Of a stretch of 64,000 nt of DNA, positions 20,001 to 53,200 are shown one piece after another. Position numbers and translations under genes: made by a program. The first letter of the stretch is position 1. Every line of letters begins with the position of its first letter. The notes below the pieces were generated by a model that did not search any database, was not told the DNA's origin, and saw only the letters and a list, made by a program, of their open reading frames with translations. This DNA is from Enchytraeus crypticus (Eukaryota; Annelida; Clitellata; Enchytraeida; Enchytraeidae), in assembly GCA_905160935.1 (NCBI GenBank), contig CAJHZI010000794.1, forward strand, positions 3,487,501 to 3,551,500, given 5' to 3'.

Positions 20001-23000
20001 CCTGTTATATTTCTTAGTTGTCTAATTGACGAATAAAAGATCTTCATTATTACTGTGTTATTATTATTTTTTTAATATTTGTTTATATTTTGCAGCTGAC
20101 GGAACTGGGGGTGGGTTAATTCAGACACCTGATGATTATGGTCAGCAGGTGCCTAGAGGTGTGTTGTTGTCAATTTATTTCATAAATAAACAATTAACAT
20201 CGGATTAATTAAACGTTATATAGTAAATTGACGATTTTAGACTTCATAACCGGCCCATTACAGTAGAGATTGTGTATGTGTGTTGATAGAGAGACAGTTT
20301 TTTGCTAAATTTTACTATAAATATTGTGCATACTATTTGATAGTTCAGATAATTTAATTTTTGGGAAAATTAAAACCACTCATAATTAATGCCAATAGCA
20401 AATCATTAGATCATTAAATATGTAATTAGATTTGTGTTTTTGTTTCAGCTAACTGGCCCGTTGATTCTACCAACACTGGCAAAGGTGAATACTTGTTTCC
20501 ATGAATGCGGATATTTATAGATTTCTATAGAATAAGAAATATAAAAATAATTATAAATGGATTAATTACTTACTATATACTCGCGTTGTGTCCGGGATGA
20601 CCAACCGTGGACTGCACGTGCCGTAAATGGCGACAAAGCCCAACGTCAAATAGGGCATTCTATTAGTGAGCGCCTAGGCTCCTGAAATTGCTAAAAACTT
20701 TCTTGCTAAAATTTCTAATCCTGATCCTAGTTAAACTGTAATTCAAGGGAAGATGATGACGATGATAATTACTACATTCTGCATAGTTCTATTATATATT
20801 TTTGCTGAGTTCATGTGTCATTCTTAATCGGGTATGTTTTTGCAGCTTTAGAGTTATGTGTACACTTCATTTTGGTTTAAGATATGGTTAACAAGTTTCT
20901 TACACACAATTTTGTTATGTTCTAATAGCTTCTCAAGGACTTTCAAGAAACAATAATGTTACAATTTTACGTCCTTAGGGAAAAAGACGTTGAAGTTTAC
21001 CGTAGAGTAAACGTGTGAATTTACTTATAATCATCGCGAGGAATATTGAACCATTTTTTGTGTTTTACACAGGTGGCTGGGATGGAAAAGACGGCCAACA
21101 AGTCTATGGTGGAATTCCCCCGATCTATTTATGGATTGGCATTGCCTGCATTGGCGGATTTATAATCGTTACTGTTATAGTCATTATTATAGTCGTCGTG
21201 TGCTGTTTACTGCGACGCAGAATTCCCGAACCCGTAGAGCCTAAACATAGGTAAGACTCAGGGACGCCAACCCTCTAAGTCTATTACACAATTCCCCCCC
21301 GCCCCCGCTCATTTTCTAAGAGTTTTGATATAATTTCAATAATTTAATGAGATAATGTAAAGGATACCGAAATTACATTCACTAATGACAGTATGCTTGT
21401 ATATGGGCTATTTTGAATTATTCATTGTAATTGGCACGAAAAAATCCCCCTAGATCTCTAAAAATATCCCCACCTAAGCTTGTGACTACGCTCTCTGTTT
21501 AGTCGATAAGCTCTGTAGACGCCCTTGCGCCACTAAGACTCGTTCATGATGTGATTTACATTCATTCTTACGTATGACTCATTTATCACAGAGGTCTACA
21601 GATGTAAATTATAAGCTTTGAACGTAACAGAATTCGTAGCTATGTAGTCCGAAGTTTAATATCCTTTTTCTTTGTACAAGATTTTGATTATTTAGAGTAC
21701 TTAGGGTTTGAGAGATTACAAAGGAAATATAATATTTTAAATGATGATTCTGTTGCCACCACAAGATTTAAAATGAGGACATACTTTGAAAGATATCAAA
21801 TATTGAATCTACATGTAATTTGGATTGGCACACGTTGAACTGTTTATCGTATGGTTTGCAATTTGTTACTGCGTCTGCTTAGACTAACTATATGCATATA
21901 GGTTACTTTCTTTCTTTTTATTTAATTAATTTCGTTCGGTTTGTTTGTTTGTTCGTCTCTGCTCTATAATGATGAGAAAGGAATATATTGATCAGATATC
22001 TTTATGGATAAGAGTATCATTAATCAAATATCATTATGGATAAGAATATCATTCATCAGATATCTTTATGGGTGGTATAATAAGTATGAAGTAAGTTAGT
22101 ATCCTATGTTCTGGACAGAACGTAAGGAACTGATGATGATCATGATGAAGTTAGTATCCTGTTTTTGCTAAAGCAGGGACAGCCTGGTGTCCGACAGGTC
22201 CAGATCCAGTAAGGGGGAGCTGAAGCCTCCGGATCTCTGGAATCATCACGGAAACATCGAGGCGTCCAGTGATGATAGGGACAGCGACCTGGAGTCCGCC
22301 AGTACCGTGGGGAGGCGTAATCCAAGGAGTCCTAGGGACCTGTACTCTCCAATACCTGGTTAACAATCTCCTTCCTCTCTGCTTTCTCTCGTTAACTTTC
22401 TATCTTTTGGTCTTTCTCTCAATGAAATGCCTAATGGCAGGGCCGAAATACTGTGTATGGCTCCCTATATCAATTGCACCAGTGGATGTTGCCTTGTTGG
22501 TGTGCTATTACATCTAAATTTTGGCTAATAAAAATACTAATAATAATTATAGCCATTATTAAAATGCTAATTGTAGTTGTACTATAATATCGCTAATTAC
22601 AATTTGAACGTGATTAATGTAATGTAAGTGATTATTTAAAGTAATAATCACTTAGTATAAACCAGCTTTACAATAAGATATAGAAATATTAATATGCTGT
22701 TTCTACATGTACTCTAATGCATGCTAATTGTTGTTGGCAGCTGAAAATGGATACAGAACTGTTGTTGTTGATAGCTGAAGATCGATACAGAACTAATGTT
22801 GTTGTTATTGCTAGCTGAAGATCGATACAGAACTGTTGTTGATGTTGTTGTTGATAGCTGAAGATCGATACAGAACTGTTGTTGATGTTGTTGTTCACAG
22901 CTGAAGATCGATACAGAACTGTGCCAATGCGACCTCTACCCACGCTCATATCTGTTGATACACCTTCTCCTCTGCTCAGAGACCACGAGATGCAGTGCCC

Positions 23001-50200: not shown

Positions 50201-53200
50201 CAACAATAACAAACAATCAATAACTCTGACGTGTTATTTCTGCAATATAACAATAACAAACAACCAATAACTCTGACGTGTTATTTCTGCAATATAACAA
50301 TAACAAACAATCAATAACTCTAACGTGTTATTTCTGCAATATAACAATAACAAACAATCAATAACTCTGACGTGTTATTTCTGCAATATAACAATAACAA
50401 ACAATCAATAACTCTAACGGGTTATTTCTGAAGTATAATAATAAAATTCTGTATAGTCAGAGATGTAACAATTCTGCAAGATATTAATAAACAATCAGTA
50501 TACACTGGATCTTTAAAATGTTAATATAGCCATAACAAACAAGCGATATGACATCTCAGGGGTCAGAAAGTGTTATATCTGTAATATGGCTATAACAAAT
50601 AACCACACAAGTGCAAACACACACATGCATACACGCATACAGACATCAACATTATGTAACATTTTATTACAAATTAATAACAGTTTTAACAATGCTATAA
50701 TTTCCTCACTTAAAGACCCTACACGCAAATAGAAACAACCAGAATAAAAACATGTCTTGATTCAATAAAATGATTATCTTGAGTAAAATAAAGATGTAAA
50801 AAATGAATTTACAGCAGGACCTGCAATTTAACTGTAGGATCAGACAAGAAAAACTAAACTTCAACATACCGTTTTGATTTGCTTCTTCATTAGAATCACT
50901 TATAAAAGTCTGAGACGCTGTTGCTTCGACAGACTAAAGAAAATCAATACTAATAGTTATAATGCTTATCTCAATAAACACTCTACATAAGTTTAGCTAT
51001 TTTTAATGATTTAATATCAGCTATTTTAAAATAATTTAGTATCACAATAGACGCATTAATAACAAACTAGTTTAACAATAGTAGAACACATTCTGAATAT
51101 ATCTATTAACTAACTTTGTAAAATAATGTCAATGACTTTCATCGAAACTGATATTAAACCAGGCTAAAGTTGGCTTAAAGTGTTATCAGTGCATTATTCA
51201 ATCATTCTTAACTAAGTTCCGGAAATACTTAGAGCAGCGAAGTGAGATGTAGTCAGTCTAACTGGAGAACTTCAGAAGTGACTAAGTCAAAGTCCATAAA
51301 CGAGGTGCATAATGGAAAAATTAGCCTCTCAAAGTTCTGATCTGCAAATAGTCACTCACACGTTAAAAATTTGTAGTATGTTACATCTAAATTGTTAATT
51401 TTTATAATGAATACGATTTTGTCACATCATTTAGCATCACAAATCCTTGATTCATTCATGCATTCAAATTCATTTGTTCAAGAGTACTAATTGCCGAATG
51501 ACCTAGGAATTGAACTCACATTTCTTCTAAATTACTAGTCAAGCTAGGCTGGCCGTGCTCATAACACTGCACAAATAAACCACGACATTCAATCCCAGCC
51601 TGACCTTCTTATGGCACAAAAAATGATGCTAGCCTCATAATTACACAGTCCACTTCTAAATAATAGCTATTTTGAGGCGACTCAGCAATAATAGCAAGTA
51701 GTAAGTAGATTGCAGAAATATCAGTACAACAGAAGTCTTGAGATCACTAAATAAAGCCCGACTTATTAAACATTCAGATGTACAGTAGACATTCGGATAA
51801 GCAACAAACAATATTTTATGGATACGATATGAGACAATATATTATGTTACCTTTTGATTTGATGCAAAATCGAGATTATGTATCGCCAGTAGTAGACTAT
51901 AGTCCATTATTTTGAAGCTCTGTAATAACTGAAATAAACGATTAAACATGTTAATAAATCAATCAATTACAGTTTTCCATTAGAAAAAATCATTTTACGC
52001 CAGTAAATATAAACCTATTGAAATTTAAAAAAACAATTATCTCTCTCTCACACTCTCTCTCTTAGTGATATATATATATATATATATATATATATATATA
52101 TAGAGAGAGAGAGAGAGAGAGAGAGAGAGAGAGAGAGAGAGAGAGAGAGAGTGACATCATTCAGTTAAGCATTACAGTTAAAATATTTATAAATGATTGC
52201 CACAGCAGCAAATCTATAGAGAGTAAAACTAGCAGCCATAAATGAAGCAAAAACAATTAAATGCTTCATTCCCTTAATAGTCCTTGCTATCAAAATGTCA
52301 GAGAATCAATGTCTCTGACAGTATCCCTTGCGACACTGAAACAGACGATAAATTTAGCTTTATAGGTTTTATCTGCAACAGTTATTTTCATGCTGACTCT
52401 TTCCATGTTATTCCCTTTTCCAAGAATTTCTCTAAAGATCAGATATACATTTGACTTTGAAGTAAATCATGGTAACACAGTCAAAAAGCAGAAATTAACC
52501 AACCATCCCTCATTCGCTCAGGAGTACTAATTGTCGAATGACCTAGGAATTGAACCCACGTTGCTTTTCACTACTTGTTTCTGAGACAAAAACGTTATCC
52601 ATCAGGCTATTACACCATAGATCTTAAATTCCTTATTTAGATTAGATTAGAGAGATTAGACATTAGATATTAGAAGGCTATAGGATTAGATTTAAGTATT
52701 AGATGATTAGATTTAGACATTTTATAATTAGACTATTAGATGAAATTAAACTTTAGTTAAGATTTCAGATTCTCAACATAATTACTAACAAAACTTTTAA
52801 TTCAGCCAAATTTGCAATGGCTCACAATACAGACATTAAATCATAATCTATTGGTTACTGCATCTTTACTACAAATAACAATAGCACAGTTAAAACACTA
52901 GCTACTACTGATCATTAATAACTAATAGCTAAAAATAGCTAATAATACATAAAATTCAAGATTCTACTTGTTACTAAATACATCAATAGTTATATTTATA
53001 ATAACAATTTGTAATTTCTTAAATAATAAATAAACTTACCCTGCAATCTCTTTCCATCGTCTTCATTAGCGCTGATAATGTATCTGCAGAGAGAGAAAGT
53101 CCCTCTGGGTTCAGTTCCAAAAAGTCAAGATCTTTGTAGGTGGGCGATTCCTTGGTTAACTCGTGCTTCGATGCCTTTCGTTTGTACGTGCTGCCTTTGA

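Follow-up and report, generated by a model that had tools for sequence, protein, structure and literature searches.

Tandem arrays that lie across exon-intron boundaries have been described in amphioxus under the name of mirages, reportedly also by Canestro et al. in 2002, a study known here through citations. According to the accessible parts of two reports, amphioxus mirages are minisatellite-like repeats found in Adh3, the globin genes BflGb6 and BflGb9 and PGBD5, among others, with units of 10 to 72 bp in Adh3 and of 150 to 160 bp in the globin genes; reverse transcription PCR suggests that the genes are spliced regularly, somatic instability is described at Adh3, and the authors of the globin study proposed mirages as a source of new introns (PMC3087553, PMC3902484). 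Here, we describe arrays of similar structure in the annelid Enchytraeus crypticus, starting from three of them, A1, A2 and A3, in a stretch of 64,000 nucleotides (assembly GCA_905160935.1, contig CAJHZI010000794.1, positions 3,487,501 to 3,551,500, forward strand), hereafter called the window. A first, sequence-only reading of the window had known of NAGNAG and isolated duplicated sites, but not of such arrays as a habit of a genome; as a kind, the arrays are not new (PMC3087553, PMC3902484). We consider it probable that the arrays of the worm are mirages as well, i.e. mostly neutral duplications that are seeded at junctions and spliced at the copy on the exon side.

The three arrays are recovered by Tandem Repeats Finder (TRF) where the sequence-only reading had placed them (Table 1), and they lie in two genes, as it had held. 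A1 belongs to a neogenin/DCC-like gene on the plus strand (approximately 1.8 to 25.1 kb of the window), whose Ig and fn3 exons are reflected in profile matches to I-set and fn3, accompanied by a weak match to Neogenin_C (E 0.0024, 18.2 bits, compared to a Pfam cut-off of 25). A2 and A3 belong to a PIP5K-like gene on the minus strand, which, judged by eye, extends from approximately 57 to 38 kb and carries PF01504 in one exon. AG is kept in all five copies of A1 and in all six copies of A3, and GT is kept in the donor register in 27 of the 29 copies of A2; in A1, the copy table gives the highest score to the exon-side copy, CACAG. The arrays are also unrelated in sequence: a blastn comparison of 19 junction arrays, i.e. 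these three and the 16 of the sample described below, yields matches for two of 171 pairs, both short, one of them between A3 and an array of a kinesin gene over 23 bp. On the same grounds, it was rejected that the junction arrays derive from a mobile element.

That each array includes an exon-intron junction is firm for A1 and rests on a gene model for A2 and A3. The A1 acceptor (exon from 22901, plus strand) is well supported, because CACAG, an open frame and a subsequent donor follow the KPPDLW exon of the neogenin-like gene, whereas the junctions at A3 and especially at A2 are predictions only. The putative A3 acceptor (minus strand) agrees with phase 1 of the predicted exon before it, and the putative A2 donor (intron from 38864, minus strand) is compatible with a possible terminal exon in phase 2; however, the frame of the A2 exon meets a TAG inside the first repeat unit, so that the coding region could simply end there. 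Among intronic frames, a codon model places the A1 exon at the 81st percentile and the repeat part of the A2 exon at the 54th, but this model has little power, as an undoubted exon of the neogenin-like gene reaches only the 51st percentile; in a hexamer model, known exons reached just the 79th to 90th percentile. The splice-junction observation is thus firm for one array and plausible for the other two.

A wider set of junctions was taken from the assembly (524 Mb, 802 contigs) at homology-anchored exons, which were chosen so that the reality of an exon does not depend on the repeats. The myosin head domain (PF00063) has 81 genome matches, of which 74 are flanked by sufficient sequence (187,091 N-free bases), and 137 of their 148 possible junctions were called. 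Of the 128 matches to the kinesin domain (PF00225), 40 were fetched with approximately 70 to 310 bases on each side, and 71 of 80 possible junctions were called. The GC content of the myosin blocks (34.6%) is close to that of the window (34.7%). Counting TRF arrays with a unit of 10 to 60 bp and a score of at least 80, 10 of the 137 myosin and six of the 71 kinesin junctions lie inside an array, which amounts to 16 of 208 (7.7%, 95% interval 4.5 to 12.2%). Both ends of introns are affected (9 of 99 donors and 7 of 109 acceptors), and stricter floors (score 150 or unit 20 bp) leave 15 or 16 of the 208. The best TRF units of the 16 arrays measure 31 to 58 bp, and AG or GT is kept in 69 of their 76 copies, the called copies included; six of the 208 junctions lie in arrays with longer units of 61 to 200 bp.

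The link between arrays and exon edges is most apparent from the position at which the arrays end. Arrays that extend into the exon by no more than 1.2 units account for 15 of the 16 and are thus found at 15 of 208 junctions, compared to 0.98% of the pseudo-junctions placed in introns of the myosin blocks (7-fold, P = 3e-9) and, as a closer control, to 1.96% of pseudo-junctions located 60 to 200 bp from a junction (P = 2e-5). When both sides of each junction are counted, 23 exon-facing array ends fall into the 16,440 bp of myosin sequence within 60 bp of a junction, compared to 65 in the 181,181 bp beyond (3.9-fold, 5.9 expected), and 14 fall into the corresponding 8,520 bp of kinesin sequence, compared to four in the 16,595 bp beyond (6.8-fold, 2.1 expected). 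The recurrent local duplication at exon edges that had been proposed from the window is borne out by these counts. Placement tests point in the same direction: the 10 spanning arrays of the myosin genes compare to 1.8 under random placement with the same exon rule, to 3.6 after shifts of ±300 bp and to 5.2 after shifts of ±120 bp (P = 0.01), and the six of the kinesin genes to 2.9 after shifts of ±300 bp (P = 0.013). Arrays also make up 15 to 16% of the non-dispersed bases within 200 bp of exons, but 6 to 8% beyond. Dispersed repeats, detected as repeats shared by two or more of the sampled contigs, were considered as a diluting factor of deep introns that might cause the excess near exons; this was rejected, as their share is 12 to 16% within 200 bp and 17 to 19% beyond. 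Arrays just inside the intron that contain no junction are over-represented, too (13 and 8 ends at 0 to 60 bp). We read the junction-linked seeding of arrays as real and of moderate strength.

It could be argued that the genome simply has an ordinary high density of minisatellites, which hit junctions by chance without exon edges being special. Arrays with units of 10 to 60 bp cover 6.1% (score of at least 100) or 6.8% (score of at least 80) of the window and 6 to 7% of the myosin blocks, and three hits among a few dozen junctions are therefore unremarkable by simple overlap; the sequence-only reading had taken these three cases within 64 kb to suggest a recurrent local duplication process, and the support that exceeds chance is provided by the wider set of junctions. 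An overlap test close to the one it had proposed yields 7.7% of junctions compared to 6.0% of intronic positions (P = 0.19). Moreover, the short kinesin blocks show no excess over random placement (6.5 compared to 6 observed, P = 0.70; P = 0.20 for shifts of ±120 bp), and the neogenin-like gene alone has no peak, with one of its 38 called junctions inside an array, three array ends within 60 bp and four at 60 to 150 bp. However, called exons consist of arrays to only 2%, so that arrays placed at random should be depleted at exon edges, whereas arrays with a reach of at most 1.2 units are 7-fold more frequent there than at pseudo-junctions and, in myosin and kinesin genes alike, array ends are concentrated within 60 bp of junctions. 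Chance alone is thus an unlikely explanation.

Several further points weigh against junction-seeded duplication with use of the exon-side copy. The sample comprises two families from one assembly and one haplotype, the junction calls and copy scores use hand-written generic splice matrices, with 20 of the 228 possible junctions dropped for want of a site, and an array near two junctions may have been counted twice among the array ends. The exon-side copy is inferred to be the one in use on the basis of homology and reading frame, and the best-scoring copy is not always the one on the exon side: in A3, five intronic copies score 9.7 to 9.8, compared to 6.8 for the exon-side copy. Three of the 16 sample arrays (on contigs C332, C54 and C324) contain another copy beyond the called junction, towards the exon, which means that either the junction was miscalled or an inner copy is in use; for C324 we think of a miscall, as the domain match ends near the outer copy. 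The polarity of the arrays, with the functional junction at the exon side, had been ascribed to purifying selection on the exon copy. A reach of less than one unit into the exon, found for 13 of the 16 arrays, the three cases above being the others, agrees with this proposal; however, the polarity is partly a truism, because a copy on the exon side is inevitable in any array across a junction.

The additional copies had been regarded as clusters of competing or decoy splice sites, and a functional version of this idea would be that they are real alternative or decoy sites, which tune isoforms or nonsense-mediated decay. Indeed, the splice dinucleotide is intact in 69 of 76 copies, their scores often equal or exceed that of the called copy, and classical duplication experiments are reported to favour intron-proximal splice sites. 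Many copies are, however, nearly identical, so that intact dinucleotides need no selection, and the sites at array junctions have ordinary scores (P = 0.91 for seven acceptors, P = 0.41 for nine donors). The unit length is a multiple of three in 6 of the 19 arrays, as expected by chance, and although a splice dinucleotide is present exactly one unit away in 16 of the 19, use of this neighbouring position would cause a frameshift or a stop in 17 and neither of them in two. The lack of a bias towards multiples of three and the 17 broken frames would be expected if only one copy is used. This counts against protein isoforms, albeit not against decay-coupled regulation, and overall we regard functional site clusters as quite unlikely; the data favour extra copies that are passengers ignored by the splicing machinery over a control of isoforms. 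The excess of arrays at junctions would also arise if selection kept them because a spare splice site buffers mutations of the real one. Yet most spare sites shift the frame or add a stop and would be poor backups, and the junction-free arrays just inside the intron are over-represented as well, which makes buffering very improbable.

For mostly neutral duplications seeded at junctions, the following sequence of events can be envisaged. A short segment that straddles or adjoins an exon-intron junction would be duplicated in tandem, possibly by slippage or template switching, followed by unequal exchange. Within the intron, the array would then grow and become homogenised, whereas selection would maintain the copy on the exon side. 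This copy would normally be the one used in splicing, and the extra sites would mostly be neutral passengers. For the myosin array at C404:1046628, there is a hint of a recent origin; five other myosin exons that match the respective profile region have called donors, and none of these is among the spanned junctions. It is tempting to speculate that exon-intron junctions are hot spots of minisatellite birth in this annelid, with approximately one in 13 sampled junctions spanned and natural clusters of near-identical splice sites that would number in the thousands to tens of thousands, and which an exon-side splicing rule would render harmless; we see this extension as evenly poised between right and wrong. 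The extrapolation uses the number of junctions usual for animal genomes and not a count in this genome. If true, it would call for a mutational process linked to junctions, coupled to transcription or splicing, or for an unusual tolerance provided by exon definition.

With amphioxus mirages, as far as the accessible parts of the reports describe them, the worm arrays share a tandem unit that contains the boundary (16 of 208 junctions and A1, with A2 and A3 by gene model only), an occurrence at both 5' and 3' intron ends, with units of 15, 43 and 47 bp in the window and 31 to 58 bp in the sample, and the retention of AG or GT in many copies (PMC3087553, PMC3902484). On these structural features, the worm arrays may be filed as mirages. 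They differ in their occurrence in an annelid, in a sampled frequency at homology-anchored junctions and in a measured peak of array ends; conversely, splicing and instability were tested in amphioxus, whereas the worm arrays are known from sequence alone (PMC3087553, PMC3902484). A related process is the gain of introns by tandem duplication, which reportedly likewise copies splice signals in tandem; there, however, a duplication within an exon creates a new intron, whereas the arrays described here occur at existing junctions and lengthen introns (PMC4974935). No report of such arrays in annelids turned up among the literature matches listed, in which few subscription papers are covered. As far as these searches go, the novelty lies in the phylum, in the frequency and in the peak of array ends at junctions. 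Splice sites carried in tandem arrays are reportedly also the subject of Zhuo et al. (2007) on human introns derived from tandem arrays, to judge from its title. NAGNAG and other tandem splice sites are neighbouring alternative acceptors as well, but usually comprise two sites spaced by a few bases, whereas the worm units measure 15 to 58 bp and are present in 2 to 29 copies.

The choice between identical splice sites is of interest because proximity to the other intron end, scanning for the first AG and exon definition predict the use of different copies. Intron-proximal copies would be expected to win by the classical experiments, yet 17 of the 19 neighbouring positions break the frame. If the exon-side copy is used, it is thus puzzling why equally strong intron-proximal copies would be ignored. 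In a genome rich in such natural arrays, which differ in copy number and occur at either end of introns, long-read RNA sequencing could settle this choice. Furthermore, a measured mutational peak at junctions would bear on the growth of introns and on the origin of new ones, and in genome annotation, junction arrays are a pitfall for spliced aligners and gene models alike.

Table 1. Arrays, exons and neighbouring repeats of the window (window coordinates).
Feature	Position	Strand	Basis
43-bp array with its end 18 bp upstream of a neogenin acceptor, AG not included	17692..18126	+	TRF arrays compared to called junctions
Pyrimidine-rich 23-bp array with its end 5 bp upstream of a neogenin acceptor	18954..19054	+	TRF
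KPPDLW-motif exon of the neogenin-like gene, before the A1 exon	22177..22358	+	Neogenin_C E 0.0024, below cut-off; flanks
Array A1, 43-bp unit, 5 copies; neogenin-like gene, acceptor side	22728..22922	+	TRF
Neogenin-like exon from the exon-side copy of A1	22901..23002	+	Open frame, CACAG before, gtacg after
Possible terminal exon after A2, phase matching	38090..38225	-	Acceptor TTGACAG, open frame to TAG; codon score 30th percentile
Array A2, 15-bp unit, 29 copies; PIP5K-like gene, donor register	38433..38871	-	TRF, score 654
Predicted PIP5K-like exon ending at the first A2 copy, putative donor	38865..39300	-	Codon score of unique part 96th percentile
In-frame 27-bp repeat (9-residue unit, TTRASAEI-like), 3' part of predicted exon	38883..39052	-	TRF, open frame
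Predicted exon from the exon-side copy of A3	50081..50192	-	Phase 1 fits preceding exon; codon score 83rd percentile
Array A3, 47-bp unit, 5.7 copies by TRF (6 AG copies); PIP5K-like gene	50177..50444	-	TRF
Predicted exon before the A3 exon	50870..50933	-	Phase 1 donor; codon score 35th percentile
PIP5K kinase-domain exon identifying the second gene	53040..53258	-	PF01504 E 1.8e-21

The A1 exon itself has no Pfam match, and scans of the window with Rfam and for tRNAs gave no matches. The in-frame 27-bp repeat of the PIP5K-like gene abuts the 15-bp array A2, so that two unrelated arrays stand back to back across the end of the predicted exon. Between the predicted exons of the same gene, an open frame of 1371 residues (45547-49662) lies on the plus strand; its first 450 residues match a reverse transcriptase (PF00078, E 7e-18), likely of a non-long terminal repeat (non-LTR) element, and are followed by several hundred residues to which no identity was assigned. 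A tRNA-like motif resembling a short interspersed nuclear element (gatgtcagtgac...gaacccgcat and its reverse) was seen by eye to be repeated near 2061-2216, 8877, 23860, 29740 and 34090. In the myosin sample, equivalent exon matches on C332 are spaced such that three myosin genes may stand in tandem near 749k, 789k and 829k; the copy at 789k is of the striated-muscle type. Two myosin exons compared to the PDB had vertebrate non-muscle and molluscan striated myosins as their best matches.

A different kind of tandem repeat was observed upstream of 3' splice sites. Three or more units of TTGA occur within the last 50 nucleotides before 13 of 109 called acceptors, compared to 65 of 7,460 background 50-mers (both strands; myosin and kinesin introns). 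These tracts are strand-biased, with 41 in sense and none in antisense orientation in the 300 nucleotides before acceptors, compared to two and four in the 300 nucleotides after donors; over the whole myosin blocks, 62 sense and 23 antisense tracts were counted. As TTGAT fits the loose branch-site consensus yUnAy, the (TTGA)n repeats may represent tandem branch-site tracts.

The assembly also contains a mitochondrial contig, C802, which is assumed to stem from the same organism as the window. Its genetic code and gene order point to an annelid, and amphioxus was rejected as the source. In its COX1 gene, AAA coincides in four of seven cases with a lysine of an aligned mammalian-type chain, ATA with methionines and AGA with conserved serines. 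By the standard code tables, this codon use agrees with the invertebrate code, but with none of the echinoderm, pterobranch and vertebrate codes. Near COX1 lie nad3 (PF00507), a Proton_antipo_M gene of the size of nad2, cox2 (PF00116) and cox3 (PF00510), as well as a frame of 55 residues in the place of atp8, which has no profile match. Four further tRNA predictions appear spurious, as they are either on the opposite strand or in overlap with genes, whereas predicted tRNAs N, D, Y and G are located between cox1, cox2, the place of atp8 and cox3. The resulting order, nad3-nad2-cox1-N-cox2-D-atp8-Y-G-cox3, is that of annelids.

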